From Pseudaquabacterium pictum (GTDB taxonomy: Bacteria > Pseudomonadota > Gammaproteobacteria > Burkholderiales > Burkholderiaceae_C): 64,000 nt of DNA. The DNA is taken from the NCBI RefSeq assembly GCF_005403045.1, contig NZ_BJCL01000003.1:248001-312000 (forward strand), given 5' to 3'. Positions 44,896-63,726 of the stretch are shown here, one piece after another. Made by a program: the position numbers and the translations under genes. Below the pieces are notes generated by a model that saw only the letters and a program-made list of their open reading frames with translations, made no database searches and was not told where the DNA came from. Numbering within the stretch: the stretch's first letter is position 1; each line of letters begins with the position of its first letter.

Positions 44896-44931
44896 GGCAT
44901 TGCGTGCAAGTGCGACCTCCTTGAGTTCTTG

Positions 44932-45399: not shown

Positions 45400-45402
45400 G
45401 CC

Positions 45403-46441: not shown

Positions 46442-46459
46442 CAGCGTCTCCCTTGTGAT

Positions 46460-46571: not shown

Positions 46572-46578
46572 GTCGCCG

Positions 46579-47109
46579 TCATGGCCTGCACACTGGTGCT
46601 GAGGCTGCGACTAAGCAGCAAGCGAAACACCCTGTTGGCTTTGAGGCGCTCGCTGGCTTTTCCAGTTTCGTGAACCCAGATGCGATTGCTGCCGACAAAA
46701 TTAGCAAACTGACCCAAAAGAACGCGTGCTCTAGCATTGCCCAAGTCTTTCCTTTGGCTTGTAGGAACGGAATGCTTTGCGGTCCCTGCGCCTTTTCCCA
46801 GAAGTCTCCGAAGTTCTTGTGCTCAATAGTGCTGCTGGCAACAACCCCACCACACATCCCAGCCATAACCATAAACGCAAGGGCAAGGTAGAGCGGAACG
46901 CGATTGTTCTCGGTGATTAGAGCGGAAACAAACCAACCGGCCTTCTCGGAACCCAGAAGAGTTGCAAGACCTGCTGCCGCAGACAGGTAGATCCCGATGT
47001 GGAACTTTGTGTAGTCATATAGGCGCTCCAGTCGCTTGTCATCTGGTGCGCTTGGCGCGTCCGGTGGGGGTGGCAATACTGGGCTAGTATTGGATTGATT
47101 ATCTGACAC
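46579..47109 (-). CDS. Membrane protein with Pro-rich N-terminus (cassette 21)
   Basis: 176 residues. Pro-rich cytosolic start (SPVLPPPPDAPSAPDD), then FHIGIYLSAAAGLATLLGSEKAG, VPLYLALAFMVMAGMCGGVVASS and HAFFWVSLLILSAAIASGF as helices. Cys-rich C-terminus (GCFACCLVAASAPVC). Family not known to me. Confidence 0.62.
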   Translation of the reverse strand: MSDNQSNTSPVLPPPPDAPSAPDDKRLERLYDYTKFHIGIYLSAAAGLATLLGSEKAGWFVSALITENNRVPLYLALAFMVMAGMCGGVVASSTIEHKNFGDFWEKAQGPQSIPFLQAKGKTWAMLEHAFFWVSLLILSAAIASGFTKLEKPASASKPTGCFACCLVAASAPVCRP

Positions 47110-47137
47110 TGGACACCTCTGTTCTGTGGATTGCGAC

Positions 47138-47263
47138 GCCTAACGTTGGAGGTGAGGCGCACGCAGCGGCATGGCGCCCTGGCCGCGCGACGCATGATGG
47201 GCCACCGCGTTGCGCGGCCAGGGTGCCATGCCGTTGCGTGTCGCCTCGACCGACGGGTTAGGC
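47138..47263 (-). repeat. attC of foreign type, cassette 20
   Basis: 126 bp. Cores standard, stem GCGGCATGGCGCCCTGGCCGC paired with its complement near 47211-47235; unrelated to the local type. Confidence 0.92.
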
Positions 47264-47329
47264 GTCGCCGTGCGTCGTGTACTCGCGAGTCCAGAATACA
47301 GAGCGAGAAGCCGCTGAAAAGTGGTTCTA

Positions 47330-47650
47330 CTACTGTTGATCCACATTCTCTTTCCGCTTTCGATACTCGCCAATATCAATCTCACCATCGATGAGCGCCG
47401 CAACGTCTTGGTCAGGATGCTGTGATTTCGTTGCATCTTGCCTCGCCAGGGTCAGTCCGACAACTCCGTACACGAAGTTCGCTGCGAAGAGAATGCCGAA
47501 TACAGGAAAGAAGACGTTGTCCCACTCCCTTGAGATTGCTCCCTCGACGCCTGCCCAGATGTATAGGAGTGTGCCGACCCACAGAGGGAAGAAGAGCCAG
47601 TTTCCTCGGCGGAAATGAGCTTTGGTTCGTTCTGAGGGTCTGAAGAGCAT
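47330..47650 (-). CDS. Small two-helix membrane protein (cassette 20)
   Basis: 106 residues. Two helices (LFFPLWVGTLLYIWAGVEG, NVFFPVFGILFAANFVYGVVGLTLA) and an acidic C-terminal tail (DQDVAALIDGEIDIGEYRKRK). Travels with a foreign attC. Function unknown. Confidence 0.6.
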   Translation of the reverse strand: MLFRPSERTKAHFRRGNWLFFPLWVGTLLYIWAGVEGAISREWDNVFFPVFGILFAANFVYGVVGLTLARQDATKSQHPDQDVAALIDGEIDIGEYRKRKENVDQQ

Positions 47651-47677
47651 GACGCAGCGCGGATGGTTGGTTGCGAC

Positions 47678-47789
47678 GCCTAACGTTTGAGCTAACCGGA
47701 CCGTTGCGGTATGTGGCTAAAGGCCCAGAATGAAATGGAGGGCCTTTAGCCGCATGCCGCAATGGGTCCGGTTGAGCGAATGGTTAGGC
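47678..47789 (-). repeat. attC, cassette 19
   Basis: 112 bp, major type. Confidence 0.95.
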
Positions 47790-47827
47790 CGCATTTTAAG
47801 TGATGTTTCAGTTGCGAGTTTGAAAGA

Positions 47828-48232
47828 TTAATTGCGAGGTAGCGGTACGCTGGGCGGTTTGAGTGGAAGCCAATGCTCCGGTTTCCTAAACGGTGCGCAA
47901 GATGGCGATGCGCCTGTAGGGGTGTCGTACTTAAAAGACTGGAAACGATCGCTAGTGCAGTACACCGTAGCGAAAGAGAACTTTGGATGACCGTCACTAC
48001 CTGGGCAGTAAAGTAGCACTTTTGCACCATCTGGTGGGTGCCTATAGATTACAAAACCGGAACCACTCGCGCCTAAAACTCTTTGCTGTAATGTTTGCCA
48101 TGATGGAGGAATGGCTTCATACTCTTTCTCGCTCATGCAGTGAGACTGCAGTCTGCCTACTTGTGCCTGTGAGGCGTTTGAGGTCGCGATCGATGCGATC
48201 GCGAGAGACAGAGTGAGAGCAAATTTGGACAT
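47828..48232 (-). CDS. Secreted hypothetical protein (cassette 19)
   Basis: 134 residues. Signal peptide MSKFALTLSLAIASIATSNASQAQ, mature part with four cysteines (SHCMSEKEYEAIP, VLLYCPGS, TVYCTSDR, PSCAPFRK), so probably disulfide-bonded and periplasmic. Pro-rich C-terminus. Unknown. Confidence 0.66.
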   Translation of the reverse strand: MSKFALTLSLAIASIATSNASQAQVGRLQSHCMSEKEYEAIPPSWQTLQQRVLGASGSGFVIYRHPPDGAKVLLYCPGSDGHPKFSFATVYCTSDRFQSFKYDTPTGASPSCAPFRKPEHWLPLKPPSVPLPRN

Positions 48233-48293
48233 TGCGTCTTGCCAAGTTTTTTTAAAGAGATGGCTAGTGTGGCTGCCAGATTCTCGCTATGCG

Positions 48294-48405
48294 GCCTAAC
48301 GTTTGAGCTAACCGGACCGTTGCGGTATGTGGCTAAAGGCCCAGAATGAAATGGCGGGCCTTTGGCCGCATGCCGCAATGGGTCCGGTTGAGCGAGGGGT
48401 TAGGC
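48294..48405 (-). repeat. attC, cassette 18
   Basis: 112 bp, major type; outer arm GAGGGGTTAGGC. Confidence 0.95.
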
Positions 48406-48477
48406 CGCACACTCGTGCGGTGACCGTTGCTCAGTTTTTTGTACAAGGCGAAACGTGTTGAACGCGTTAGATTTCGA

Positions 48478-49059
48478 TTACAGCGGCCTGCCGCCCCCTT
48501 CCGAGCCGGGTCGAGCAGACTGCAGTCCAACATTGACGTTGCACTTGTCTTGAGAGGCCGCATTAAACCCGCAGACGGCCGAAATGTAGGCTGCGCCAGA
48601 CTTCCACTCATAGGTAAGTTGATTCCACTTCGCGCCATACGAATTAGACTTCTCTACCTGAAACGTCCTTGGCTCACCAAACTTTTTTCTGAAGTCTTGA
48701 ATGGCAGCGATCTGGACGCCAAAATGAACGTGGGAGATAACAGCTTGTCCATTCACAGATTGTGACGTGGTGATGGAGGCGTCCGCATTGCTAGAGAAGT
48801 TAGGAACAAGTCCGCTCGGACGCTCTTTGGCACTGAAATAGAAAGGCCGCTTATTACCGCGCATCGTTTGAGCGCAGGTATAGGGGACGCCGAGGGTTTG
48901 GCCGTCATATGGCGGACAATTGGGGATTTCGTACACTCCTCCAATAACTAGGCCGTACACGGACGTGGAGTTTCCGCTAGTCTCGCTCTGTGCGATCGCT
49001 ACCGACATACTCAGAGAAGTGACGAGTAGTGCTGTGAAGGATGCCGCTGAAGTAGTCAT
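48478..49059 (-). CDS. Secreted hypothetical protein (cassette 18)
   Basis: 193 residues. Signal peptide MTTSAASFTALLVTSLSMSVAIAQ. Mature protein has IGGVYEIPNCPPYDG, TCAQTMRGNKRPFYFS, VHFGVQIAAIQDFRKKFGEPRTFQVEK, TYEWKSGAAYISAVCGF. The FGEPxxF plus WxSG pattern recalls small envelope beta-barrel or BamE-like lipoprotein domains. Unknown role. Confidence 0.66.
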   Translation of the reverse strand: MTTSAASFTALLVTSLSMSVAIAQSETSGNSTSVYGLVIGGVYEIPNCPPYDGQTLGVPYTCAQTMRGNKRPFYFSAKERPSGLVPNFSSNADASITTSQSVNGQAVISHVHFGVQIAAIQDFRKKFGEPRTFQVEKSNSYGAKWNQLTYEWKSGAAYISAVCGFNAASQDKCNVNVGLQSARPGSEGGGRPL

Positions 49060-49159
49060 AGGATTCTCCTTGAAGAAGGCCTCGGGGAAGCTCCGAATTG
49101 TGCGAGCGACGCACGGTGTGGTGCGGCCCGTGATTTGCTCGGAAGGGTGGTGTTGTGCG

Positions 49160-49271
49160 GCCTAACGTTGAAGCTAACCGGACCGTTGCGGCGTGGGGCT
49201 AAAGGCCCAGAATGAAATGGAGGGCCTTTGGCCGCACGCCGCAATGGGTCCGGTTGAGCGACCTGTTAGGC
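49160..49271 (-). repeat. attC, cassette 17
   Basis: 112 bp with family A marks GTTGAAGC and GACCTGTTAGGC; GCGTGGGGCT stem. Confidence 0.95.
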
Positions 49272-49684
49272 CGCACTGGTGGAAGTGTGCTGACCCAAGA
49301 GACCTGGGACAAGCACCCGGGCCTGGCGTCGGCGCAGGACCTTGGTGAAGATACGAACGGCGCTGGACGAAGCGGCATGCGGCCCACGCTACCCCATGAG
49401 GTGATGTGCTGCAACAAGGGCCGCACCCAAGAACTGACTACGCGGCGTAGCACGCCGGCGCGAAGCGCCAACCATCAACCGGCTTGTGGACGTCCTACTT
49501 GGCACTGACGCCGCACAGGAAGTGCAGGTGCCAAACAGTGCATCTGCGCGTGGAGGTGCCGGACGACAGCCAGGCCGCGGGTTTGGCCTTGCAGGCTGCT
49601 GGCTTGGTAAAGCGGTGAATCGCGCGCGGAAGCTTGCTAACTGGATTCGACGCTGCGATCTCAGGAGGGCGGTGCAACTGTGCG
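49272..49684. other. Gene-less cassette, family A (cassette 17)
   Basis: 413 bp. Hairpin II at 49438-49450 carries the compensated form CTACG-CGG-CGTAG; hairpin III at 49457-49469 is GGCGC-GAA-GCGCC. Confidence 0.72.
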
Positions 49685-49796
49685 GCCTAACGTTTGAGCT
49701 AACCGGACCGTTGCGGTATGTGGCTAAAGGCCCAGAATGAAATGGCGGGCCTTTGGCCGCTTGCCGCAATGGGTCCGGTTGAGCGAATGGTTAGGC
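49685..49796 (-). repeat. attC, cassette 16
   Basis: 112 bp, major type; GCTTGCCGC in the outer arm. Confidence 0.95.
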
Positions 49797-49808
49797 GTCA
49801 CGGCGTAG

Positions 49809-50234
49809 CTACATGCACGATGGATAGCCGGCGAACACACAGCCAGCTACCCACCCTACGCCGAACAGACCAGGAGAGAGCAACCAACCGACCAGTGCTG
49901 CAAGGCCGAGCGCAATGCGTGTTGTCGAGGGTGCCGCCTGAGGCGTGGCAAACATGAAGCGACGGAGTGCAGCAAGCGCAATGAACGGCAGCGAGAGCAT
50001 GACCGCACTTCCTAACCAATAGCCGGCCTCCCTTTGAAGGACGAAGCCTTTGAACACGGAACCCTCGCCGCGCCCATAGAGGATCAAGAGCGTTGCAATC
50101 CACGCCCCTAGCCAAAGGGCCGTTGCTGTTTTCCATGTATGACTCGACAGCACACGCCATGAATTGCCCGTGGAGAGTGCCACTTGCGCGAATAGTGCGA
50201 CCCCGCAAGGTAGGAAGGTCAGGTAGTGCCACAT
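49809..50234 (-). CDS. Four-helix membrane protein (cassette 16)
   Basis: 141 residues: LTFLPCGVALFAQVALSTG, ATALWLGAWIATLLILYG, YWLGSAVMLSLPFIALAALRR and IALGLAALVGWLLSPGLFGVGWVAGC. Ends FAGYPSCM. Unknown family. Only about 30 bp separate its start from the next attC. Confidence 0.62.
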   Translation of the reverse strand: MWHYLTFLPCGVALFAQVALSTGNSWRVLSSHTWKTATALWLGAWIATLLILYGRGEGSVFKGFVLQREAGYWLGSAVMLSLPFIALAALRRFMFATPQAAPSTTRIALGLAALVGWLLSPGLFGVGWVAGCVFAGYPSCM

Positions 50235-50265
50235 GCGCGTTGGTGTGGGGTGTTGGGTTTGTGAC

Positions 50266-50377
50266 GCCTAACGTTGAAGCTAACCGGACCGTTGTGGCAT
50301 GCGGCTAAAGGCCCAAAATGAAATGGCGGGCCTTTGGCCGCATGCCGCAATGGGTCCGGTTGAGCGATTTGTTAGGC
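50266..50377 (-). repeat. attC, cassette 15
   Basis: 112 bp, GTTGAAGC inner arm; single changes CGTTGTGG and CCCAAAATG; outer arm GATTTGTTAGGC. Confidence 0.95.
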
Positions 50378-50790
50378 CGCACTGGTAGAAGTGTGCTGAC
50401 CCAACCGGCCATGGACAAGCAAGCCGGCTTGGCGAGTGCGCAGAAGCTTTGTGAAGAAGGCGAGAGCGCTGAACGTAGCGGCATGCGGCCCACGCTACCC
50501 GATGAAGTGACGCGCTGCAACAAGGGCCGCACCCAAGAACTGACTACGCGGCGTAGCACGCCGGCGCGAAGCGCCCACTAGCAACTGGCTTGTGGCCGTC
50601 CGATGCAGCACTGACGCTAAACAGGAAGCGCTAGTGCCAAACAGTGCCTCGGACCGCGGTGCTGCTGGACGACGGCCAGGCCAAGGTTTTGGTCTTGCGT
50701 GCTACTTGCGACACAGAGAGCTGGACCGTGCGAAAGAGCCCTTGGCATGATTTCAACGCGGCGATTCTTGTAGGGCGCTGCAACTGTGCG
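50378..50790. other. Gene-less cassette, family A (cassette 15)
   Basis: 413 bp. Hairpin II at 50544-50556 is the compensated CTACG-CGG-CGTAG form, as in cassette 17. Adjacent to another family A cassette. Confidence 0.72.
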
Positions 50791-50901
50791 GCCTAACGTT
50801 GAAGCTAACCGGACCGTTGCGGTGTGGCGGCATTTGGGCTAGGTTTTTCTAGCCCAAATGGCGGCACGCCGCAATGGGTCCGGTTGAGCGACCTGTTAGG
50901 C
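50791..50901 (-). repeat. attC, cassette 14
   Basis: 111 bp, second hairpin type with GTTGAAGC and GACCTGTTAGGC. Confidence 0.95.
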
Positions 50902-51311
50902 CGCACTGGTGGAAGTGTGCAGCCCCAAGCCGCTTTGTAAGAGCGCACTGACCTGGCGATTGCGGAGGACCTTGGCGAAAGCGGCACCGGCGTTGGGCGA
51001 AGCGGCATGCGGCCCACGCTAACCGATGAGGTGCCGCGCTGCAACACGGGCCGCACTTACGAACTGACTGCGCGGCGCAGCACGCCGGCGCGAAGCGCCA
51101 ACCAAGAACTAGCTTGGTGAGGTTCGAGGGGCCACTGGAGCAGCAAAGGCAGCTCAGGAGCCAACAGTGCATCGAGTTGCGGTGACCATGATGGTTGGCT
51201 CAGCTGCCTCCGGTTTTGTGTTTGAGCTGCCGAGAAGGGATCCGCAGGTTGCGTGCGAAGCCTTGGCTGATACTCGACGCGGCAATAGCGGCAAGGCGTT
51301 TCAACTGTGCG
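50902..51311. other. Gene-less cassette, family A (cassette 14)
   Basis: 410 bp. Hairpins II and III intact (loop GAA). Right half matches cassette 31 closely. Confidence 0.7.
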
Positions 51312-51422
51312 GCCTAACGTTCTAGCTAACCGGACCGTTGCGGTGTGGCGGCATTTGGGCTAGGGTTTTGTAGCCCAAATGGCGGCACGCCGCAATGGGT
51401 CCGGTTGAGCGCCGTGTTATGC
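51312..51422 (-). repeat. attC, cassette 13
   Basis: 111 bp, second hairpin type; outer core GTTATGC. Confidence 0.95.
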
Positions 51423-51686
51423 GTAGCGCCAACGACGGAGCGGAAACACCAGCAGTGAAGCGATGGTTCTTGAAGCTGAGCCAGCTTGCAAGAGCCAATG
51501 CGCGGCAGGCGATGGAGCGCGGGACACAAGACCGTTGCAAGCGGAGCTGGTTGACGCGTGGCGATAGCAGTCTCTGTGTGCTGACATGGTTCTCGGTGCA
51601 TCGAGAGATTGGTTGCCAGAGCGACGGAGTTTTGCGTGGCTGGACGTTGGCCACCGACTGCATTTGATCTCCGCGGGTTACCTGAC
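51423..51686. other. Gene-less cassette, family C (cassette 13)
   Basis: 264 bp, one of the most diverged family C copies, length conserved. Confidence 0.7.
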
Positions 51687-51798
51687 GCATAACGTTTGAG
51701 CTAACCGGACCGTTGCGGTATGTGGCTGGAGGCCCAGAATGAAATGGCGGGCCTTTAGCCGCATGCTGCAATGGGTCCGGTTGAGCGAATGGTTAGGC
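51687..51798 (-). repeat. attC, cassette 12
   Basis: 112 bp, major type with stem changes GGCTGGAGG and GCATGCTGC; left core GCATAAC. Confidence 0.94.
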
Positions 51799-51807
51799 CG
51801 CAATTCA

Positions 51808-52170
51808 CTACTCGAGCTTTGGACCAGCTACCACCGAAATAGGCTTGACCTCGCCGGTTGGCTTCTTGACAAGAAGCTTGACCGTCTGACCGATCTCGCG
51901 CTGCATATATGGTTGCAGGTCGTTGGCCTTGGCACCAACTACCGACTTCCCCTCAATTTCGACAATGGTGTCGCCCGCAGTGATGCCTGCCTTATCTGCC
52001 GACGATCCGGCTAAGACTCTGGCTACTTTTACTGACTTCAGTGTCGGGTTCCAAAAAACGCCTTCTCCTTCTACTGAGATGTCGATGCCTAAGTAGCCCT
52101 TCCCACCCGCCAGTGCCGTGACTGCGGCGGTGAGAAGGATAGTAAAGATAGAAATGCGATTGCGGTACAT
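51808..52170 (-). CDS. Secreted PDZ-domain protein (cassette 12)
   Basis: 120 residues. N-terminal membrane or signal segment ISIFTILLTAAVTALAGG, then GYLGIDISVEG (carboxylate-binding loop), VKVARVLAGSSADKAGITAGDTIVEIEGKSV and VKLLVKKPTGEVKPI, a nearly complete PDZ domain. Probably periplasmic, binding C-termini of unfolded or substrate proteins. No protease domain is attached, unlike DegP. Confidence 0.85.
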   Translation of the reverse strand: MYRNRISIFTILLTAAVTALAGGKGYLGIDISVEGEGVFWNPTLKSVKVARVLAGSSADKAGITAGDTIVEIEGKSVVGAKANDLQPYMQREIGQTVKLLVKKPTGEVKPISVVAGPKLE

Positions 52171-52228
52171 AAGTGTAGTATTTGCTGTTCAATGTGGCGA
52201 TTGCACAGGCACAGTGGAGGCTATTGCG

Positions 52229-52340
52229 GCCTAACGTTTGAGCTAACCGGACCGTTGCGGCATGCGGCTAAAGGCCCAGAATGAAATGGCGGGCCTTTAG
52301 CCGCATGCCGCAATGGGTCCGGTTGAGCAAATGGTTAGGC
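52229..52340 (-). repeat. attC, cassette 11
   Basis: 112 bp, major type; outer arm GAGCAAATGG. Confidence 0.95.
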
Positions 52341-52364
52341 CACACTGCTTGGCTGTGCAAACGC

Positions 52365-52754
52365 CTATTTTGCAGGCCTAGCTGCGATGGCTTCGCATTC
52401 GACAAGCAACTTTGGATCGACGAGTTGAGAAATGAAGACCGCAGTAGAAGTTGGCTTGTGATCGCCAAGCAACTGCGCGCGAGCGCTGCGGACAACCCGG
52501 ATGTCTTGACCAGCCACAACAAACAGCGTGATCTTGACAATAGAAGATGCATCTAGTCCATGAGCAAGTAGGAGGGACTTGATGTTGTTGAACATCTGAA
52601 CAGACTGCTCTTCCAGAGTCGAAGGAACTGACCCATCCGGTTTGATGCCAACCTGGCCAGAGAGGAAGATCAGTTCTGTGCCTGTTGGTACCACTGCCGT
52701 GTGGCTGTATCCCGTGGGTGTGTGAACGTCTTGCGGATTGATAAATGTAGTCAT
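52365..52754 (-). CDS. Rid (YjgF/UK114) superfamily protein, copy 2 (cassette 11)
   Basis: 129 residues, differing from the cassette 52 copy at about six positions (for example Thr3 for Ala, Leu for Phe in RAQLLGD, Arg for Lys near the end), all conservative. The flanking untranslated sequence is also nearly identical, so the whole cassette was copied. The same loss of the RidA PARS arginine applies. Confidence 0.88.
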   Translation of the reverse strand: MTTFINPQDVHTPTGYSHTAVVPTGTELIFLSGQVGIKPDGSVPSTLEEQSVQMFNNIKSLLLAHGLDASSIVKITLFVVAGQDIRVVRSARAQLLGDHKPTSTAVFISQLVDPKLLVECEAIAARPAK

Positions 52755-52812
52755 GGGTGTGGTCTCCTGGAGTTCAATCAGATGTTGAAGTGCGCAGGTC
52801 TCGAATAGTGGG

Positions 52813-52924
52813 GCCTAACGTTGAAGCTAACCGGACCGTTGCGGCGTGTGGCTAAAGGCCCAGAATGAAATGGCAGGCCTTTAGCCGCATGCCGCAATGG
52901 GTCCGGTTGAGCGAATGGTTAGGC
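52813..52924 (-). repeat. attC, cassette 10
   Basis: 112 bp, GTTGAAGC inner arm, GCAGGCC apical change. Confidence 0.95.
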
Positions 52925-53189
52925 GTCACTGCGGTGCTGCGCATGACTTTGGGCTTCGCCTGATGGAAGTTGAATATGTACATACCCAAGAGCGCGAAGG
53001 TGTGAGGAGGATGTTGGGCTAATTCTCTCTTCCAACATCCGTTGCCATTGTTTCATGTCTGCTTTCGTGAAGAGGGCGCTACGTAGACGGTATCCAGCAC
53101 CTCACGCAACTAGGTTGCCGGCATCTGGGAAAAGCTTGTGTACCTCATTGGTACCTCTGGCTGTTTCGCTATTCGATCTGGTGCGTTTT
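52925..53189. other. Non-coding part of cassette 10
   Basis: About 265 bp between attC and the 40-aa gene. No gene seen. It contains GTTGGAAGAGAGAATTAG-like AT-rich stretches but no clear structure. Confidence 0.5.
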
Positions 53190-53312
53190 CTATCGAATCA
53201 ATCCATAGATGATCCAGCCTGCAATGGCTGATATCACGATCCAATAGATTAATCGGGCTCTCGGACTCATCTTGCGGTAAGTCTCGGGATCGGGGCCTCC
53301 GGGTGCTGCCAT
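53190..53312 (-). CDS. 40-residue single-helix membrane protein (cassette 10)
   Basis: Starts ATG 53310-53312 (MAAPGGPDPETYRKMSPRA) and ends with one helix LIYWIVISAIAGWIIYGLIR. Positive residues before the helix predict an N-in orientation. It is the only plausible gene of this cassette and is just over 20 bp from the next attC, as for other cassette genes. Evidence is the clean frame, typical position and typical small-membrane-protein layout. Confidence 0.55.
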   Translation of the reverse strand: MAAPGGPDPETYRKMSPRARLIYWIVISAIAGWIIYGLIR

Positions 53313-53334
53313 GGGGTGCGTTTGTCTTTGTGAC

Positions 53335-53446
53335 GCCTAACGTTTGAGCTAACCGGACCGTTGCGGTATGCGGCTAAAGGCCCAGAATGAAATGGCGGGC
53401 CTTTGGCCGCATGCCGCAATGGGTCCGGTTGAGCGAATGGTTAGGC
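53335..53446 (-). repeat. attC, cassette 9
   Basis: 112 bp, major type. Confidence 0.95.
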
Positions 53447-53514
53447 CTCACCGTTTCCTCACTACGGTTACTGCAACTACTTCTAGGTCGACTTTGCGTA
53501 GGCTTGGTGTCAAG

Positions 53515-53829
53515 TTATTCGACCAATCGGAGGCTCATCGTCCCATTGCACTCGATCAAGTGTACTTCGCGTGTCTTTACTGCAGTTAGTTTGCCTCGTT
53601 CCAAACACGGTGTCGTTCGAGAGGTCTCAAAGTGCTTCTTGATCTTTTCTGTAACGTCCCACAGTGCTGAGACTCTTCCTTCGGTTTGGCCCTGACTGCG
53701 CCAGTTATCACGAACAGTTGGGATGACTAACAGCGCAAAGACTAGACTTGTTGCAAGACAACCTATAAGAAAAGGGCCTGCAACTGGCAAATTTAGAAGC
53801 GTACGCAATGATGTTCCCGGTGTCTGCAT
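53515..53829 (-). CDS. Single-pass membrane protein (cassette 9)
   Basis: 104 residues from ATG 53827-53829. One helix (VAGPFLIGCLATSLVFALLVIP) followed by an extra-cytoplasmic or cytosolic part with TEGRVSALWDVTEKIKKHFETSR and CLERGKLTAVKTREVHLIECNG (possible disulfide). Unknown. The upstream frame is translated attC. Confidence 0.6.
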   Translation of the reverse strand: MQTPGTSLRTLLNLPVAGPFLIGCLATSLVFALLVIPTVRDNWRSQGQTEGRVSALWDVTEKIKKHFETSRTTPCLERGKLTAVKTREVHLIECNGTMSLRLVE

Positions 53830-53864
53830 GAATAGCGGCGCGTGTTTGGCGGGCGGTTTGTGAG

Positions 53865-53976
53865 GCCTAACGTTTGAGCTAACCGGACCGTTGCGGTATG
53901 TGGCTAAAGGCCCAGAATGAAATGGCGGGCCTTTAGCCGCATGCCGCAATGGGTCCGGTTGAGCGAATGGTTAGGC
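53865..53976 (-). repeat. attC, cassette 8
   Basis: 112 bp, major type. Confidence 0.95.
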
Positions 53977-53982
53977 ATCGCT

Positions 53983-54534
53983 TTAGCCCGGTGACGCGGA
54001 GAAAACTACCCGGACAACTTTGTCGCCCAGAAAGTAAAGTGTGAGGTACTGCGGTAGCTCGCAAGTGCACTCCGCATTGAAGATCCAGACATCGGGATTT
54101 TGGTTCTCAGCTGGAGGCCCAAGGTTCTTCCGGACTTCTTCTCGAGTTGAGCCGAGCCGAAGAGCTTGCCAGTTTCCAAAGCCCTCATCGGGTTCAAGGT
54201 TCTTAGTGAGAGCTCGCGTGCGTTCATGCGGTGTCAGGCTGGTGTTGACCCCCTGTTCAAGTGCGATCTCGCCAACCAAGCTGTCTGTGAAGGTTGATAC
54301 CTTCATGGTCATCTTTGCTCCCGGATCGATGAAGTAGCGGACCCCTTCAGATTCCTTGGGTCTGTGTGCGCCTTTACCGAGTAGCCTCACAACGTGTTTG
54401 TCCCGAGACGTCCCAGCTATCACCCCTGCGTAGTGCATCGGCCAGCAGAACGTTCCGGGCTTCGAGATAACGTGCTGGGCCGCTACTGCGTCGATGGCCA
54501 GGGCGAGTAGAAGAAGAGCGAGACGTGGAGTCAC
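53983..54534 (-). CDS. Secreted protein with SmpA/OmlA (BamE)-like C-terminus (cassette 8)
   Basis: 183 residues. Signal peptide MTPRLALLLLALAIDAVAAQ. C-terminal NWQALRLGSTREEVRKNLGPPAENQNPDVWIFNAECTC..YLTLYFLGDKVVRVVFS follows the BamE/SmpA pattern (lxxGmsxxxVxxxlGxP...w.Y). Without a lipobox it would be soluble in the periplasm. Middle part (residues 40-120) not recognised. Confidence 0.66.
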   Translation of the reverse strand: MTPRLALLLLALAIDAVAAQHVISKPGTFCWPMHYAGVIAGTSRDKHVVRLLGKGAHRPKESEGVRYFIDPGAKMTMKVSTFTDSLVGEIALEQGVNTSLTPHERTRALTKNLEPDEGFGNWQALRLGSTREEVRKNLGPPAENQNPDVWIFNAECTCELPQYLTLYFLGDKVVRVVFSASPG

Positions 54535-54548
54535 GGTGTATTTGCGAT

Positions 54549-54659
54549 GCCTAACGTTCTAGCTAACCGGACCGTTGCGGTGTGACGGCATTTGGGCTAC
54601 GGTTTTGTAGCCCAAATGGCGGCACGCCGCAATGGGTCCGGTTGAGCGCCGTGTTATGC
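54549..54659 (-). repeat. attC, cassette 7
   Basis: 111 bp, second hairpin type (GTGACGGC variant); outer core GTTATGC. Confidence 0.95.
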
Positions 54660-54924
54660 GTAGCGCCAACGACGGAGCGGAAACGCCAGCTGCGCCTGGA
54701 AGTTGATTGAAGCTGAGCCAGCCTGCATGAGCCAATGCGCGGCAGGAGGTTGAGCGCGGGACACAAAACCGTTGCAGGCGGAACTGATTGACGCGTGGCG
54801 ATGGCAGTCTCTCTGCGCTGACATGGTTCTCGGTGCACCGAGGCAACAGCTGCCAGAGCGACGGAGTCTTGCCGAGGTTGACGCCGGCCAGCGAATGCAA
54901 TTTATTTTCCGCGGGGTACCTGAC
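54660..54924. other. Gene-less cassette, family C (cassette 7)
   Basis: 265 bp, one base longer than the other copies. Confidence 0.7.
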
Positions 54925-55036
54925 GCATAACGTTTGAGCTAACCGGACCGTTGCGGTATGTGGCTAAAGGCCCAGAATGAAATGGCGGGCCTTTTGCCGC
55001 ATGCCGCAATGGGTCCGGTTGAGCGAATGGTTAGGC
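54925..55036 (-). repeat. attC, cassette 6
   Basis: 112 bp, major type; left core GCATAAC. Confidence 0.95.
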
Positions 55037-55061
55037 GTCGCTGGCGATAGTCTGTAAGTCT

Positions 55062-55799
55062 TCATTTGGCGAATGGAACAGTCTTCGTTGCGGTGGCTGG
55101 AGCAAATATCTCAGAAAGTTTCTTCTCGTTCGCATCCCGGAGTTCCGCATCGCTCAGTCGAATTATCTGCAGTATTTTTGCTCGAAGCGGTGCTGAGACG
55201 TTCACTAGCGTTGCGCTGAGTTTCTTGCGTTCATCTTCAACTATATCGCGCAGAGCTTTGCCTATCAACGGACTTTCCTTCATGGAGAGTACTTTTTCAT
55301 CTCGAAGCACGTCCTGCAGACGAGACCTAAGGTTCTCTTGGGCCGCCCGCTCTGCCGATCGAATGCTGTCAATTGTCGTATCAAATATTCCCTGAAACGT
55401 AGGCACGTAGCCATACAGCTCCATATATGCAATCTGAAGCTGTTCATCGACGATTCGTTGCGATGCCTTTGCTTTCGCATCCATCAGTCCCTTAAAGAGC
55501 ATTCGATTTGCCGGCTGGGTGGAGTTGGTCTCGGCAACCTTCTCTGAAACATCTACCAGAGTCGGCTGAATGTCCTCAAAATAGCGTTGCGACAGTTCTC
55601 CCCACCTTTCAACTTTAGCTGTAACAATTGATGCGCTCTTTCTGACTCGATCTGCATACTCTCTGTCTTTGAGATACTGATCTTTGTTCCACGCGACTAT
55701 AAAGGCAACGAGTGATCCAACAATCGAGATCACTGTAAGTATCTGGCCAAGGTCTATTTCGCGCTTTAGGGTGAAGCTTCGATTACTTGATTCAGACAC
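55062..55799 (-). CDS. Membrane-anchored helical protein (cassette 6)
   Basis: 245 residues. Cytosolic start (MSESSNRSFTLKREIDLGQ), one helix ILTVISIVGSLVAFIVAW, then a long, highly charged helical region of about 200 residues (heptad-like runs such as AERAAQENLRSRLQDVLRDEK and LRDANEKKLSEIF). Topology resembles small sensor or scaffold membrane proteins. No known motif. GC lower than the flanks. Confidence 0.62.
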   Translation of the reverse strand: MSESSNRSFTLKREIDLGQILTVISIVGSLVAFIVAWNKDQYLKDREYADRVRKSASIVTAKVERWGELSQRYFEDIQPTLVDVSEKVAETNSTQPANRMLFKGLMDAKAKASQRIVDEQLQIAYMELYGYVPTFQGIFDTTIDSIRSAERAAQENLRSRLQDVLRDEKVLSMKESPLIGKALRDIVEDERKKLSATLVNVSAPLRAKILQIIRLSDAELRDANEKKLSEIFAPATATKTVPFAK

Positions 55800-55847
55800 T
55801 TGGCAGACTTCCTAAATAGTTTATGTACTACGAGCGCGGATTCCGAC

Positions 55848-55959
55848 GCCTAACGTTTGAGCTAACCGGACCGTTGCGGTATGTGGCTAAAGGCCCAGAA
55901 TGAAATGCCGGGCCTTTAGCCGCATGCCGCAATGGGTCCGGTTGAGCGAATGGTTAGGC
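55848..55959 (-). repeat. attC, cassette 5
   Basis: 112 bp, major type; GAAATGCCGGG apical change. Confidence 0.95.
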
Positions 55960-55963
55960 GGCA

Positions 55964-56332
55964 TTAGTACAGACTCAGGCACTTATAAACTTCAAATCCC
56001 GACTTCTTGATGTCATTCCCAATGCGGTCAAGCAGGTACAAGTATGGGATCTTGTCATCCCCGACCGCAATAAGCCCTTTGCAGGAGTAGGAACAACTTG
56101 TGTATGAGGTGGGCTTCAAGCATATCTCCCTGCCTCTGGTTGTTTTCAGTAGGTCCATCGGCCAACTAAGGCAATCATATTTGCCACCTATTGGGCACGG
56201 TACTTGATCAAAGTTTCCAGCATAAACAATTGTCTTTCCCTGCAGGTCTGGGAGGTCGTCAAGAATGCCAGCAACGGTGAGGTTCGGCACTAGAGCCAAG
56301 GTTGCGAGTGCTAGCGTGCGTGTCTTTTTCAT
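55964..56332 (-). CDS. Secreted cysteine-containing protein (cassette 5)
   Basis: 122 residues from ATG 56330-56332, chosen because MKKTRTLALATLALVPNLTVAG is a classical signal peptide; an ATG eight codons upstream also exists. Mature part has about six cysteines (VPCPIGGKYDCLSW, REICLKPTSYTSCSYSCKG, VYKCLSLY), so it is probably disulfide-rich and periplasmic. No family recognised. Confidence 0.65.
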   Translation of the reverse strand: MKKTRTLALATLALVPNLTVAGILDDLPDLQGKTIVYAGNFDQVPCPIGGKYDCLSWPMDLLKTTRGREICLKPTSYTSCSYSCKGLIAVGDDKIPYLYLLDRIGNDIKKSGFEVYKCLSLY

Positions 56333-56374
56333 CTTGGTATCTTGCTGTTCATTCACGGAACCTTTGCCTATGCC

Positions 56375-56486
56375 GCCTAACGTTTGAGCTAACCGGACCG
56401 TTGCGGTATGTGGCTAAAGGCCCAGAATGAAATGGCGGGCCTTTAGCCGCATGCCGCAATGGGTCCGGTTGAGCGACCTGTTAGGC
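56375..56486 (-). repeat. attC, cassette 4
   Basis: 112 bp; family A outer arm GACCTGTTAGGC but the common inner arm GTTTGAGC. Confidence 0.95.
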
Positions 56487-56896
56487 CGCACTGGTGGAAG
56501 TGTGCTGACCCAACCGACCCTGGACGAGCACGGCGGCCTGGTGAGTGCGCAGAACCTTGGTGAAGACGGCCAGGGCGCTGAGCGAAGCGGCATGCGGCCC
56601 ACGCTAACCGATGAAGTGCCGTGCTGCAACATGGGCCGCACCCAAGAGCTGACTGCGCGGCGCAGCACGCCGGCGCGAAGCGCCAACCAGCAACTGACTT
56701 GGGGACCATCGAGTTGGCGAAGACGCCACATAGGAAGTGCATTTGCCAAACATTGTTCGGACTGTGGCGGTATCTGTGGACGGCCAGACCGGCAGTTTGA
56801 ACTTGCGGGAAGCGGGCTTCGTAATTGAGCGCAAATTGCGTGAAATTGCGGCTTGAACTAATTGCGGCAATTTCGGCATGGCGATGCAACTGTGCG
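56487..56896. other. Gene-less cassette, family A (cassette 4), best structured copy
   Basis: 410 bp. Outer stem GCGGCCC (56594-56600) pairs with GGGCCGC (56633-56639). Hairpin II CTGCG-CGG-CGCAG at 56653-56665. Hairpin III GGCGC-GAA-GCGCC at 56672-56684. Open frames on both strands lack start signals and run into attC. Confidence 0.75.
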
Positions 56897-57008
56897 GCCT
56901 AACGTTTGAGCTAACCGGACCGTTGCGGCATGTGGCTAAAGGCCCAGAATGAAATGGAGGGCCTTTAGCCGCATGCCGCAATGGGTCCGGTTGAGCGATT
57001 GGTTAGCC
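56897..57008 (-). repeat. attC, cassette 3
   Basis: 112 bp, major type; outer core GTTAGCC. Confidence 0.95.
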
Positions 57009-57479
57009 AGCATTGGTTGCCAACTGTGGGCGTGCAGGCATTGCACAGTGCCAAGACGGATTTGGCAAGGCGTGCGGTTGCAGCATGCTGACACTTGATG
57101 ATGGCCAAGGCAACCGGCGGTGCCGAGGCACGGACTGCGGAGCGCTCTTGCGCGCCGCCTGACCGACTGACTGCGCGGCGCAGCACGCCGGCGCGGAGCG
57201 CCGATGGCGAACAAGCTTGGAGTTCTTGGCTGCGGCACAGCCATGCAACTCAAGTGCTGGACGGGACCTGACCACACGACCGGGCCACCCTCGGGAGATG
57301 AACAACACCGGCGACCTGCGCAAGCCGAAATGCAACCTTGGCTAGCATGACTCCGCCAGTGGCGCGCGAGGCAGGCATACAGCAAGCCACAAGCGAGAGT
57401 TCGCTGCGAGATGGTGAGGGGGCACCGAAGCTGAGCATGCAAAGCAAGCACATGCGGCGAGCGTTGGCAATTGCATGCT
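57009..57479. other. Gene-less cassette, family B (cassette 3)
   Basis: 471 bp. Hairpin II intact; hairpin III with loop GGA (GGCGC-GGA-GCGCC near 57192-57204). Confidence 0.7.
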
Positions 57480-57591
57480 GGCTAACGTTTGAGCTAACCG
57501 GACCGTTGCGGTATGTGGCTAAAGGCCCAGAATGAAATGTAGGGCCTTTAGCCACATGCCGCAATGGGTCCGGTTGAGCGAGGGGTTAGGC
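57480..57591 (-). repeat. attC, cassette 2
   Basis: 112 bp, major type; left core GGCTAAC (family B). Confidence 0.95.
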
Positions 57592-58053
57592 GTCTCCGCC
57601 AAAGTGCTTCTGCCAAGTCTTTAGATCTTCTTCTTTAACGAACAAGCCAGGCGAGTTCCTCGGACCGATCTTGAGCTTTGCTTCAATCGCCGTTACAACC
57701 GAGGCCCTGTCTTCGTCCGTAAGCGCGCCTTCTCGCTTCGCATCGAATACAAGCTTCATTAGTCTTTGCAAGTTGTTCACCTCGTGCGCCGCGTCTTCCT
57801 GTTTACTTTCCTGAAGTAAATAGATTGCTGAGCCTACGACAAGCGGGGCTATGTGCTTCTGGTGGCGCTTGCTTTCCCAGGCAAGACGCAACGCCGCTAT
57901 TCCTAGGTTCCTTTGCTGCGAACCCCCGGCCAAGTACTGCAGGCCGCTCAGGAAAAGCTCGTCTGCTTTCTGCCGGAACGTGTATCGGGCGACGATCAGG
58001 CCACCCAGAAAGCCAATCAGTGCGCCCAGAATTGTGGCTGTCGCGTCCGCCAT
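57586..58053 (-). CDS. Membrane-anchored helical protein (cassette 2)
   Basis: 155 residues from ATG 58051-58053 with a strong GGAGG site upstream. N-terminal helix ATILGALIGFLGGLIVARYTF, then a helical cytosolic part (GNLGIAALRLAWESKRHQKH-like, EVNNLQRLMKLVFDAKREGAL) ending in LKTWQKHFGGDA. Nearest coding cassette to attI, so likely the best expressed from an integron promoter. Function unknown. Stop in the attC core. Confidence 0.66.
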   Translation of the reverse strand: MADATATILGALIGFLGGLIVARYTFRQKADELFLSGLQYLAGGSQQRNLGIAALRLAWESKRHQKHIAPLVVGSAIYLLQESKQEDAAHEVNNLQRLMKLVFDAKREGALTDEDRASVVTAIEAKLKIGPRNSPGLFVKEEDLKTWQKHFGGDA

Positions 58054-58070
58054 AAAAGCCTCCTTGAGAC

Positions 58071-58182
58071 GCCTAACGTTTGAGCTAACCGGACCGTTGC
58101 GGTATGTGGCTAAAGGCCCAGAATGAAATGGCGGGCCTTTAGCCGCATGCCGCAATGGGTCCGGTTGAGCGATTGGTTAGCC
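58071..58182 (-). repeat. attC, cassette 1
   Basis: 112 bp, major type; outer core GTTAGCC. First attC after attI. Confidence 0.95.
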
Positions 58183-58653
58183 AGCATTGGTGACCAACGG
58201 TGAGGGTGCAGGCATTGCACAGTGCCAAGACGGATTTGGCAAGGCGTGCGGTTGCAGCATGCTGACACTTGATGATGGCCAAGGCCACCGGCGTTGCCGA
58301 GGCACGGACTGCGGAGCGCCCTTGCGCGCCGCCTGGCGAACTGACTGCGCGGCGTAGCACGCTGGCGCGAAGCGCCAACGGCGAACAAGCTTGGAGTTCT
58401 TGGCTGCGGCACAGCCATGCAACTGAAGTGCTGGACGGGACCTGACCACACGACCTGGCCACCCCTGGCAGGTGACTACAACTCGCGACCTACGCAAGCC
58501 GAATTGCAACCATCGCAAGCCTGGCTGTGTCAGGGCCGCGCGGAGCAGGCATGCAACAGGGCAGAGGCGGGAGTTCACTGCAAGATGGTGGGCGGGCACC
58601 GTAGCTGCGCATGCAGAGCAAACTGATGCGTCGAACGTCTGCAATTGCATGCT
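58183..58653. other. Gene-less cassette, family B (cassette 1)
   Basis: 471 bp, the first cassette of the array. Hairpin II at 58345-58357 shows the half-way state CTGCG-CGG-CGTAG, keeping pairing through a G-U (G-T) pair; hairpin III is intact with loop GAA. Because it occupies the first position, any promoter in or after attI reads through it into cassette 2. Confidence 0.72.
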
Positions 58654-59199: not shown

Positions 59200-59230
59200 T
59201 TGCAGCGAGGAGGCTTCCACCGGATACTGT
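59200..59230 (+). promoter_or_regulatory. Candidate intI promoter
   Basis: TTGCAG (59200-59205) and TACTGT (59225-59230) with 19-bp spacing. The -10 overlaps the LexA box, which is where LexA repression would act. Spacing is long, so the match is weak. Confidence 0.4.
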
Positions 59231-59242
59231 GGATATGTACAG
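59227..59242 (+). promoter_or_regulatory. LexA (SOS) box upstream of intI
   Basis: CTGT, eight bases (GGATATGT), ACAG: an exact match to the CTGT-N8-ACAG LexA consensus of beta- and gammaproteobacteria, 24 bp before the intI start. SOS control of intI by LexA is established in other integrons. Confidence 0.9.
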
Positions 59243-59266
59243 CAATGCGATGGATCGCGCAACGCC

Positions 59267-60502
59267 ATGTCCATGTTCTCTGCCCCTCCCCCGCCGCGTC
59301 TGCTGGACCAACTCCGCCAGGAGATCCGCTACCTGCACTACAGCATACGAACCGAGCAGGCCTACGTCCATTGGGTGCGGGCCTTCGTCCGCTTCCATGG
59401 CCTGCGCCACCCGGCCGAGCTGGGCCACAACGCGGTCGAGGCGTTCCTCACCTGGCTGGCCACTGAACAGCAGGTGTCGGTGTCCACCCACAAGCAGGCC
59501 TTGTCGGCGTTGCTGTTCCTGTACCAGAAGGTCTTGCGGCTCTCGGTCCCCTGGCTCAACGACATCGCCCGCCCGCAGCGTGCGCCCCGTCTGCCGGTCG
59601 TGCTGTCGCACGACGAGGTCGCCCGGGTGCTCGCCGCGCTGCCCGATGGTCACCGCCTGTTCGGCCAACTGCTCTATGGCACCGGCATGCGCCTGATCGA
59701 GGCATCCCGGCTGCGCGTCAAGGACATCGAGTTCGAGCGCCGCGCCATCATCGTGCGCGAGGGCAAGGGCGCAAAAGACCGCGTGGTGATGCTGCCCGCC
59801 TCGCTTGAGCAGCCGTTGCGCCAGCAGCTGGCTGCCGCCCATGCCATCTGGTCGGAGGATCGGGCCGCCGGCGTGCCCGGCGTGCAGGTGCCCAACGCAC
59901 TCGACCGCAAGTACCCGCGGGCGCCGCTGTCCTGGGCCTGGTTCTGGGTGTTCCCCCAGGCCACGCTGTCGGACGATCCGCGCGGCGCCGGCCGGCGCCG
60001 CCACCACCTGCATGAGCAGGCCTTCCAGCGCGCCTTCAAGCGGGCGCTGCAGGCCGCCGGCATCCACAAGCCGGCCTCGCCGCACACGCTGCGCCACTCC
60101 TTCGCCACCCACCTGCTGCTGTCGGGCTACGACATCCGCACCGTGCAGGAGCTGCTGGGCCACTCGGATGTCAGCACCACCATGGTCTACACCCATGTGC
60201 TCAAGCTGGGCGGTGGCGCGGTGCGCAGCCCGGTCGACAACCTCGCAGGTCTGGTGGGTGGCGGCAGTCCGGCCGCAGCCACCATGCCGGCTCCGCACCA
60301 GGCGCCTGCCGCAGCACCCATGCCGCCCGGCATCCCGCCGGCGGCCGAGCGCAAGGCACCGCCGCCTACCTGGCCGCCGGCCATGCCCCCAGGCCCCCGC
60401 CGTCGCCCACCCCAGGCCCGCGAGCCCGTCGCCGCCTACACCGTCCGGCCATGCTGCCCGCCTACGCCGAACTGCACTGCCGCAGCTGCTTCAGCTTCCT
60501 GA
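59267..60502 (+). CDS. intI: Integron integrase IntI with proline-rich C-terminal extension
   Basis: 411-residue tyrosine recombinase. Catalytic residues: Arg142 in GTGMR, a Lys near 170, His273/Arg276 in HTLRHSF, His299 in LLGHSD, Tyr308 in TTMVYTHV. The integron-specific insert [18 protein letters not shown] (about 211-230) that binds the extra-helical bases of attC is present, so this is a true IntI. After SPVDNL (about 325), where IntI usually ends, it continues about 85 residues, very rich in Pro/Ala, into dnaE2 (52-bp overlap). The ATG at 59267 is preferred; 59273 is also possible. Regulated by the LexA box above. Confidence 0.97.
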
Positions 60503-63500
60503 CCGGCGCCTCGCGCCCGACCGAGCTGGTGGCCGAGGCCCGGCGCCGCGGCTATGCGGCGCTGGCCATCACCGACGAGGGTTCGCTGTCCGGCGTCGTG
60601 CATGCGCACGAAGCTGCGCGCGAGGCCGAGCTGCCCCTGGTCATCGGCGCGCAGATGGACCTGTCGCCCCGCCCGCAGGGTGATGGCGCGGTGCTGGCCG
60701 GCCACGGCCCGCCGCGGCTGGTGCTGCTGGCGCAGACCCGCCGCGGCTACGGCAACCTGGCGCAGTGGATCAGCGTGGCCCGCCGCCGCGCGCCCAAGGG
60801 GCAGTACCTGGCCCATGCGGCCGATCTGGAAGGCCGCGTGCCGCAGGCCCCGTTCCTGGCCGGCCTGCCGGGCTGCTTCGCCATCCTGGCGCCGCGGCCC
60901 GGCCAGGGCTTCGAGGCGGTCTACGCCCAGGCCATGTGGCTCAAGACCTGGTTCGGGGCCGACCGCTGCGCCATCGCCATCACCCTGCTCGGCCACCCGC
61001 AGGATGCCCAGCGCCTGGCGGTGCTGCCGCGGGTGTCGGCCCTCACCGGCCTGCCGCTGGTGGCCTGTGGCGATGTGCTGATGCACGCCCGCGCCCGCAA
61101 GCCGCTGCAGGATGCGCTGACCGCCACCCGCCTGGGCTGCACCGTGGCCGCCGCCGGCCTGGCCCTGGCGCCCAATGCCGAGGCCCATCTGCGGTCGCGC
61201 CAGCGCCTGGCGCGGCTGTACGCACCGGCGTGGCTGGCGGCCAGCGTCGCCATCGCCGCCAGCTGCAGCTTCTCGCTGACCGAGCTGCGTTATGAATACC
61301 CCGAGGAGATCGTCCCGCCTGGCCACAGCCCCACCAGCTGGCTGCGCGCACTGACCGAGGCCGGCGTGCGCGACCGTTTTCCCGCCGGCGCGCCGCCTGC
61401 GGTGCTGCAGACCATCGAGGACGAACTGGCGCTGATCGCCCAGCTGAAGTTCGAGCCCTACTTCCTCACAGTGGCCGACATCGTGCAGTGGGCGCGCAGC
61501 CAGGGCATCCTGTGCCAGGGCCGTGGCAGCGCGGCCAATTCGGTGGTCTGCTTCTGCCTGGGCGTCACCGAGGTCAACCCCACCGCCAAGCACATGACGC
61601 TGCTGTTCGGCCGCTTCATCAGCGCCGAGCGCAACGAGCCGCCCGACATCGACATCGATTTCGAGCACCAGCGCCGCGAGGAGGTCATCCAGTACATCTA
61701 CCGCAAGTACGGTCGCCACCGCGCCGCGCTCACCGGCGTGATGATCAGCTACCGCCCGCGCTCGGCGCTGCGCGACATCGGCCGCGCGCTGGGCATCGAC
61801 ATCGACCGCATCAACGCCGTCAGCAAGGGCCAGCAGTGGTGGGACGGCCGCGGCATCGCGCCCGAGCGCCTGGCCGAGCAGGGCTTCGACCCCGATTCGC
61901 CGGTCTGCCGGCAATGGCTGGAGCTCACCCGCCAGCTGATCGGCTTTCCGCGCCACCTCAGCCAGCACCCGGGCGGCTTCGTCATCGCGCGTGACGACAT
62001 CTCGCGCCTGGTGCCGGTGGAAAACGCCGCGATGGACGACCGCACCGTCATCCAGTGGGACAAGGATGACCTCGATGCCCTGGGCCTGATCAAGGTCGAC
62101 ATCCTGGCCCTGGGCATGCTGAGTGCCATCCGCCGCGCGCTGGCCATGGTGGCGGCCAAGCAGGGCCTGGCGCAGTTGCAGATGCACCAGCTGCCGCAGG
62201 GCGATGACGCGGTGTACGACATGCTGTGCCGCGCCGACAGCATCGGCACCTTCCAGGTCGAGAGCCGCGCCCAGATGAGCATGCTGCCGCGCCTGAAACC
62301 GCGCGAGTTCTACGACCTGGTGATCGAGGTCGCCATCGTGCGGCCCGGCCCCATCCAGGGCGGCATGGTGCACCCCTACCTGCGCCGCCGGTCGGGTGAA
62401 GAACCCGAGGACTACCCCAACGAGGCCGTGCGCCAGGCCCTGGGCCGCACCAAGGGCGTGCCCATCTTCCAGGAGCAGGTGATGCAGCTGGCCATCCTGG
62501 CGGCCGATTTCACCCCTGGCGAGGCCGACGCCCTGCGCCGCGCCATGGCGGCCTGGAAGCGCAAGGGCGGCCTCGGCCCGTTCCATGAACGCCTGGTCGG
62601 CCGCATGGTGGCCAAGGGCTACGACCCGGCCTATGCCGAGCGCATCTTCAAGCAGATCGAGGGCTTCGGCGAATACGGCTTCCCCGAGAGCCATGCCGCC
62701 AGCTTCGCGCTGCTGGTCTATGTCAGCGCCTGGCTGAAATGCCACCACCCCGACGCCTTCCTGGCCGCCCTGCTCAACAGCCAGCCGATGGGCTTCTACG
62801 CCCCGGCCCAGCTGGTGCGCGATGCCCGCGCCCACGGCGTGCAGGTGCGGCCGGTGGATGTGCTGCACAGCGATTGGGACACCGTGCTGGAAGGGCAGGG
62901 CGGGGAGGACGGCGATGGCCTGCGCCGGGATGCCGCGCCGGGCCTGCGCCCGGACGCCCCGCCGGGCCTGCGCCCGGGTGCCCCGCCGGTTCTGCGCCCG
63001 GTGCGCCTGGGCTTGAACCGCATCATCGGCCTGGCCGAGGCCGATGCCCGCCGCCTGCTGGCCGCGCGCGCGGCGCTGGCCCCGGGCGAGGCCTTCGCCA
63101 GCGTCGAGGACCTGGCCCGCCGCGCCGCGCTGGATGCCCATGCGCTGCAGCTGCTGGCCCAGGCCGATGCGCTGCGCAGCCTGGCCAGCCACCGCCACCA
63201 GGCCGCCTGGGCGGTGCGCGGCATCGACACCCGTGCCACGCCGCTGCTGCAGGCCACCCGCACCCACGAGGCGCCGGCCGATCTGCAGGCGCCCGGCGCC
63301 GGCCAGGCCCTGCTGGCCGATTACCGCAGCACCGGCCTGTCGCTCACCAGCCACCCGCTGGCCCTGCTGCGCGATGAACTGGCCGCCTTCCAGGTGCAGC
63401 CCGCCGCGGTGCTGGCCCTCAGCCGCCATGGCCAGCTGGTGCGGGCCTCGGGCCTGGTCACCCACCGCCAGCGGCCCGAGACGGCCAAGGGCGTGGTCTT

Positions 63501-63726
63501 CGTCACCCTGGAGGACGAGACCGGCGCGGTCAACGTGATCGTCTGGCCCACGGTGGCCGAGGCCCAGCGCCAGCCGCTGCTGGCGGCCACGCTGCTCACC
63601 GTCTATGGCGTCTGGCAACGCGACCGCGAAGGCCCCGATGCCGTGCAGCACCTGGTCGCCCGGCGCCTGGTCGACCATTCCGGTCTGCTGCAGGGTCTGG
63701 TCAGCAAGAGCCGGGATTTCCACTGA
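60451..63726 (+). CDS. dnaE2: Error-prone DNA polymerase DnaE2 (ImuC)
   Basis: 1091 residues, usual length for DnaE2. N-terminal PHP domain ([28 protein letters not shown]), polymerase core with [16 protein letters not shown] and the catalytic PDIDIDFEH near residue 401, fingers/beta-binding region, and a C-terminal OB fold ([27 protein letters not shown]). DnaE2 performs SOS-induced mutagenic translesion synthesis, usually with ImuA/ImuB, neither of which is adjacent here. Its start overlaps the intI end by 52 bp, implying shared transcription. An in-frame 24-bp repeat lies near residue 825-850. Confidence 0.97.
62917..63003 (+). repeat. 24-bp tandem repeat inside dnaE2
   Basis: Three units of GGCCTGCGCCCGGACGCCCC-GCCG type (62917-62940, 62941-62964, 62965-62988) plus a partial fourth. 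Each adds the eight residues GLRPDAPP or a variant. In frame, so length changes would not break the gene. Confidence 0.9.

Follow-up and report, generated by a model that had tools for sequence, protein, structure and literature searches.

The window analysed here is a stretch of 64,000 nucleotides (nt) of Pseudaquabacterium pictum (contig C3, positions 248001-312000, in a genome of 6.137 Mb in 64 contigs, 99.97% complete). Near its right end an integron integrase gene, intI, is followed directly by dnaE2, which encodes an error-prone DNA polymerase, and a perfect LexA box stands in front of the pair. We read intI and dnaE2 as one SOS-regulated transcription unit and a conserved operon, with a probability of about 0.8 judged from comparative sequence evidence. 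DNA damage would then probably switch on cassette shuffling and mutation together. The features of the locus are as follows.

59227..59242, forward strand: LexA box CTGTGGATATGTACAG, perfect, with palindromic half-sites; the sole perfect box between intI and dnaE2
59267..60268, forward strand: intI, integrase core (NCBIfam PRK15417 and TIGR02249; Pfam Phage_integrase)
60269..60502, forward strand: C-terminal Pro/Ala-rich extension of IntI with the motif AREPxxxY; its stop codon lies 52 nt inside dnaE2
60451..60502, forward strand: overlap of intI and dnaE2, 52 bp, in different frames
60451..63726, forward strand: dnaE2 (imuC), error-prone DNA polymerase III alpha-type (NCBIfam PRK05672; Pfam domains)

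Both proteins were identified by profile. IntI, an integron-type tyrosine recombinase, matched NCBIfam integron integrase (E 8e-150), with 498.6 bits against PRK15417 (cut-off 435) and 459.9 bits against TIGR02249 (cut-off 265), and in an alignment of 12 sequences the residues R142, H273, R276, H299 and Y308, which we take to be the catalytic set, are invariant. DnaE2 scored 1473 bits against PRK05672, the error-prone DNA polymerase model (cut-off 939, E 0), and carries the Pfam domains PHP, DNA_pol3_alpha, finger, HHH_6 and OB. An earlier note on this DNA had placed a perfect LexA box 24 bp before intI and had the intI frame overlapping dnaE2 by 52 bp. Both statements are borne out, the box being separated by 24 bp from the intI ATG at 59267 and the overlap spanning 60451-60502; the generality of the overlap is limited, since the IntI stop comes after the first base of dnaE2 in 17 of the 28 junctions described below. 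The perfect pattern CTGT-N8-ACAG was found at 22 places in the genome, compared with 13 for the reversed control pattern, and simple arithmetic from the genome count gives a chance of about 4e-4 for one perfect box in a given 100 bp. At the remaining 20 perfect places, for which the open reading frames were listed, no gene apart from imuA was identified by profile, and many of them are probably chance occurrences.

The junction and its LexA boxes among relatives

A tight junction is defined here as a dnaE2 lying at most 400 nt downstream of intI on the same strand. The earlier note had proposed to look for this junction in other genomes, and it was found in 28 of 145 intI loci, in 11 genera including its own (11 genomes of the genus and 17 genomes in ten other genera). 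The 145 loci consist of 19 (genus search), 26 and 100 (family), with the family places G025:C23 and G228:C13 left out; some genomes contribute two loci, and some loci are near-copies of mobile integrons. Within the genus, dnaE2 is present in 20 of 21 genomes. Tight junctions account for 11 of these and stand-alone genes for six (G002, G004, G005, G006, G011, G018); in G013, at the edge of a contig, the 3' end of intI is found 77 nt upstream of dnaE2, and in G008 and G017 the two genes are separated by 0.6-0.8 kb. In the family draw of 299 genomes, a close intI was found in 123 and a close dnaE2 in 211. A separate collection of 80 named loci yielded five tight junctions (L108, L109, L111, L122, L169), which are not counted in the 28 as such; L108 and L122 apparently correspond to G014 and G126. 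L111 comes from a metagenome-assembled genome (MAG) of Rubrivivax sp. L169, from a MAG of a far relative in Rhodocyclaceae, has the same gene order and a perfect box before intI.

The evidence that carries the operon reading is the reciprocal distribution of the LexA boxes. A perfect box belonging to dnaE2 itself, at a distance of up to 200 bp, was found in 18 of 21 stand-alone loci and in only 1 of 28 junctions (p 2e-9 by a Fisher test, a test which here and below takes no account of relatedness). The stand-alone loci are 21 of 47 analysed dnaE2 loci (after exclusion of L065, another fragment of the G018 gene) and comprise the six genus loci and the family's best-scoring dnaE2 loci, in a family where 211 genomes had a dnaE2 match. 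Within the genus, the own box is present in 6 of 6 stand-alone loci versus 0 of 11 junctions (p 8e-5), and it is absent from both dnaE2 genes located behind imuB (0/2). In the sole junction with an own dnaE2 box, that of G292, intI has no box and stops 138 nt before dnaE2. This intI had been considered degenerate because of one TAG, a candidate that was dropped as the TAG is the natural end of the G292 IntI. In a 50-row DnaE2 tree (quick method, support by the Shimodaira-Hasegawa-like approximate likelihood ratio test only, two long rows flagged), the well-supported branches force at least nine changes of the intI-linked state and at least ten of the own-box state. Among the neighbours listed, the genes downstream of dnaE2 are common to junction and stand-alone genomes, and therefore the same dnaE2 locus is present in both kinds of genome. 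The most economical interpretation is that dnaE2 requires SOS control, which would come from its own box in some loci and from the intI box in others.

The box in front of intI is also kept. All 11 tight junctions of the genus have it in perfect form, and overall it is perfect in 20 of the 28 junctions compared with 47 of the 117 intI loci without a tight junction (p 0.003, with no weighting for kinship).

Several further loci were looked at. Between intI and dnaE2, the inserts of G008 (L040) and G017 (L044) resemble, by eye, toxin-antitoxin genes encoded on the opposite strand, and L112 has a 1.3-kb insert with a 403-aa frame (2202-3410) that resembles an AAA-type ATPase by eye; the 1314-nt spacing of L112 recurs in L195 and L242, all in one genus. 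Extra integrases with 50-58% identity to that of the window, situated away from dnaE2, occur at L042, L045, L046 and L047 (in G006, G011, G012 and G007, respectively), with no LexA box of zero or one mismatch in front of them. At L349 (G009:C15 86000-97500), an intI with a perfect box precedes dnaE2, and no attC-like repeat family was found in the preceding 3.8 kb. An origin of stand-alone dnaE2 by deletion of intI found no support, as neither an attC-like family nor a remnant array was seen among the repeats before dnaE2 in G018, G004, G011 and G002.

The IntI tail and the start of dnaE2

Purifying selection acts on the IntI cores, whose pairwise ratio of nonsynonymous to synonymous change (dN/dS) ranges from 0.07 to 0.27 in 11 pairs, and the core is free of stops and frameshifts in 27 of the 28 junctions. 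Beyond its usual end, junction IntI continues as a Pro/Ala-rich tail. In the 11 genus junctions the spacer has 11 different lengths, from 99 to 285 nt, and every one is a multiple of three. The motif AREPxxxY, which sits at varying distances from dnaE2, was found, by one search pattern, in 17 of 28 junction tails versus 2 of 117 other tails (G046, G182); it is thus not exclusive to junctions, and a few other tails have loosely similar ends. Over 18 tails the AREP codons differ at 0.55 of the synonymous sites versus 0.04 of the nonsynonymous sites. For whole tails (8 pairs), the corresponding ratio of proportions, pN/pS, is 0.58 in the intI frame, compared with 0.79 and 0.93 for the two alternative frames. 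Because the AREP variation is biased to synonymous sites and pN/pS is lowest in the intI frame, the IntI tail is translated, and therefore ribosomes reach the dnaE2 start. The chance of open frames over 15 tails has a product of 4e-4, a weak measure because the tails are related and GC-rich.

Of the 28 junctions, 15 have the IntI stop exactly 52 nt into dnaE2, and in 25 it falls between -40 and +80 nt from the dnaE2 start. An ATG start of dnaE2 was found within 60 nt in 14 of 28 junctions compared with 19 of 21 stand-alone loci (p 0.005). In the junction dnaE2 of L189, L319 and L338 (G284, G211 and G093), no ATG, GTG or TTG occurs in frame within 60 nt before the conserved YAELHC, and CTG is present in two of the three. 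Such weak starts are compatible with translational coupling. No intrinsic terminator-like site was found at 59050-60800, the boundary between intI and dnaE2 included. A promoter scan of the same region found none, the front of intI included, and it is uninformative because the intI front is also blank.

The split imu cassette, rival explanations and proposed mechanism

The earlier note was correct that dnaE2 usually goes with imuA-imuB. In this genome the two genes form a separate locus, behind a perfect LexA box of its own at C1 206198, before imuA.

Contig C1 206221-207282: imuA (NF033429, 167.8 bits, cut-off 150)
Contig C1 207309-208865: imuB-like frame (start peptide, and matches before dnaE2 in L067 and L235)

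The imuB-like frame was not reported in the PF00817 search. There is no dnaE2 at this locus; with regard to the imuABC group, the dnaE2/imuC polymerase is present, on contig C3, and imuA-imuB do not share an operon with it. As far as the sequence goes, the mutagenesis cassette falls into two separate parts, imuA-imuB and intI-dnaE2, and a perfect LexA box stands before each part. An ImuA match over the cut-off was obtained in 15 of 21 genus genomes. In L067 (G010:C580), a second dnaE2 of 60% identity lies behind an imuB-like gene, while G010 also has intI-dnaE2 on C96; the L067 contig may be a contaminant.

A number of observations weigh against the operon reading. Four of 28 junctions (G213, G210, G283, G189) have no box of zero or one mismatch near either gene, and three others (G246, G222, G093) have only a one-mismatch box before intI. 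The frames do not overlap in 11 of 28 junctions, and the intI frame of G189 appears broken. In G008, G017, G266 and G078, intI and dnaE2 are 0.6-1.3 kb apart, and even so dnaE2 has no perfect box of its own in the nearest 200 bp. No difference in Shine-Dalgarno-like matches was found between junctions (2/28) and stand-alone loci (4/21; p 0.38), and the RNA fold around the dnaE2 start (60381-60500) is no better than that of shuffled sequences (z 1.25). The best-scoring choice of stand-alone loci and the relatedness ignored by the Fisher tests belong here too. Finally, the genome's own lexA box has two mismatches and its own recA box one, which means that perfect sites are not the sole working ones and that lack of a perfect box does not equal lack of control. 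The joint SOS control proposed by the earlier note has good support from the own-box contrast, and no terminator-like site was found between the genes; the four junctions without a clear box limit how far it extends.

The earlier note had also argued that the overlap leaves no gap for a separate promoter. This step fails, since overlapping frames alone do not exclude a promoter inside intI, and the argument against an SOS promoter for dnaE2 inside intI is drawn instead from the comparison with other genomes. If dnaE2 were read from a non-SOS promoter of its own in the 3' part of intI, the two genes would share a neighbourhood and not their regulation. The powerless promoter scan leaves room for this, and the four junctions without a clear LexA box fit it. 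However, we consider it very unlikely, as the own box is present in 18 of 21 stand-alone loci and gone in 27 of 28 behind intI, over several switches on the tree, and this loss would be unexplained unless dnaE2 relied on the intI box. A quite unlikely explanation is that the junction is a by-product of integron landing sites, with intI a passive passenger and only dnaE2 of importance. Junction presence does differ between close relatives, intI is cut short in G017, and the broken frame of G189 points the same way, but the low dN/dS of the IntI cores, the 27 intact cores and the occurrence in 11 genera, the own genus included, speak against a passenger. Shared ancestry alone, i.e. a single old insertion inherited without selection for keeping the pair, would account for the many junctions that fall within a single section of the family and among sister genomes; we regard it as unlikely given the forced changes of the intI-linked state on the quick tree and the Rhodocyclaceae locus with the same order and a perfect box before intI.

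For the operon, the following mechanism is proposed. LexA bound to the box at 59227-59242, over or beside the intI promoter, would repress both intI and dnaE2. After DNA damage RecA triggers LexA cleavage, as is established for such boxes, and a single messenger for the integrase and the mutagenic polymerase would then be made. Ribosomes would end IntI at the dnaE2 start, or within tens of bases around it, and so may aid the translation of dnaE2; we infer the single transcript, the damage induction and this coupling from the arrangement and its conservation. DnaE2 would work with ImuA-ImuB supplied by the second LexA-boxed locus, intI having presumably replaced imuAB in front of dnaE2. A further idea, which we hold to be improbable, is that IntI and DnaE2 also cooperate as a selected 'evolvability' unit, in which the AREPxxxY tail would serve as a peptide for docking to a partner from replication or to ImuB/DnaE2. 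DnaE2 would then share in the DNA synthesis by which cassette recombination is resolved, and the shuffled cassettes would be mutated as well. The tie of AREPxxxY to junctions and its constraint at the protein level are observed; the contact and the role of the tail are guesses.

Under stress, variation can arise both from cassette shuffling and from error-prone synthesis, and SOS control is known for each of the two. A conserved operon would bind them to one promoter in roughly fixed proportions. Having intI-linked and stand-alone dnaE2 within one genus provides many natural replicates for testing the value of the coupling.

Cassette array and comparison with known systems

Upstream of intI, which is divergent from it, lies the probable cassette array of a chromosomal integron.

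21349..58412, no strand: probable cassette array, with attC-like repeats (repeat search of 20000-60000)

The array contains several dozen attC-like repeats, with 47 copies of a 159-nt repeat and 59 of its 51-nt core, spaced by about 0.5-1.7 kb. A scan for GTTRRRY (attI) at 57901-59300 gave one match, at 58164. Repeats of 300 nt, up to 100% alike, occur at 30983-31657, 35527-35826, 41367-41666, 45400-45699, 51309-51608 and 54546-54845 and suggest repeated cassettes. Between the array and intI, a 117-aa frame on the reverse strand (58749-59102), divergent from intI, has no NCBIfam or Pfam match. To the left of the array, positions 1-18000 hold frames that by eye presumably represent nickel-iron hydrogenase and hyp maturation genes, and 19453-20550 holds what we take, also by eye, to be an IS110-like transposase. 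An Rfam scan of the 64-kb window gave no matches.

Our literature search, which covered few subscription articles and not the principal imu-cassette survey, yielded no description of an intI-dnaE2 unit. When compared to the imuA-imuB-dnaE2 cassette, the present locus is likewise a candidate LexA-boxed operon ending in dnaE2, in a genome where imuA and imuB are also present behind a perfect box, but imuAB and dnaE2 are apart and dnaE2 is preceded by an integron integrase gene. The composition of imu cassettes varies, and no integrase is named among the components in the accessible portion of PMC9578287. Chromosomal integrons regulated by LexA, such as the Vibrio superintegron and others, share the divergent intI beside a large array, here of attC-like repeats, with a LexA box just before intI, going by the part of PMC3108266 available; the difference is that here dnaE2 follows intI in an operon-like fashion, and that paper nowhere uses the terms polymerase, operon or dnaE in its main text. 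The same text gives LexA sites for 56.6% of 1,103 intI sequences and describes loss of LexA control as the norm in soil and freshwater species, whereas a perfect box is retained in 20 of our 28 junction loci. A further parallel is found in Vibrio species carrying both an imu cassette and a superintegron, where, by the available part of PMC3323433, the two functions are under LexA in one organism and LexA regulation is a persistent feature of the imu cassette wherever it occurs; in Vibrio, however, they are separate transcription units. The locus also offers an example of an imu cassette with its polymerase gene carried beside an integron. The arrangement is real and recurrent, a new variant made from known parts, and most likely represents an SOS operon coupling cassette recombination to mutagenic synthesis.

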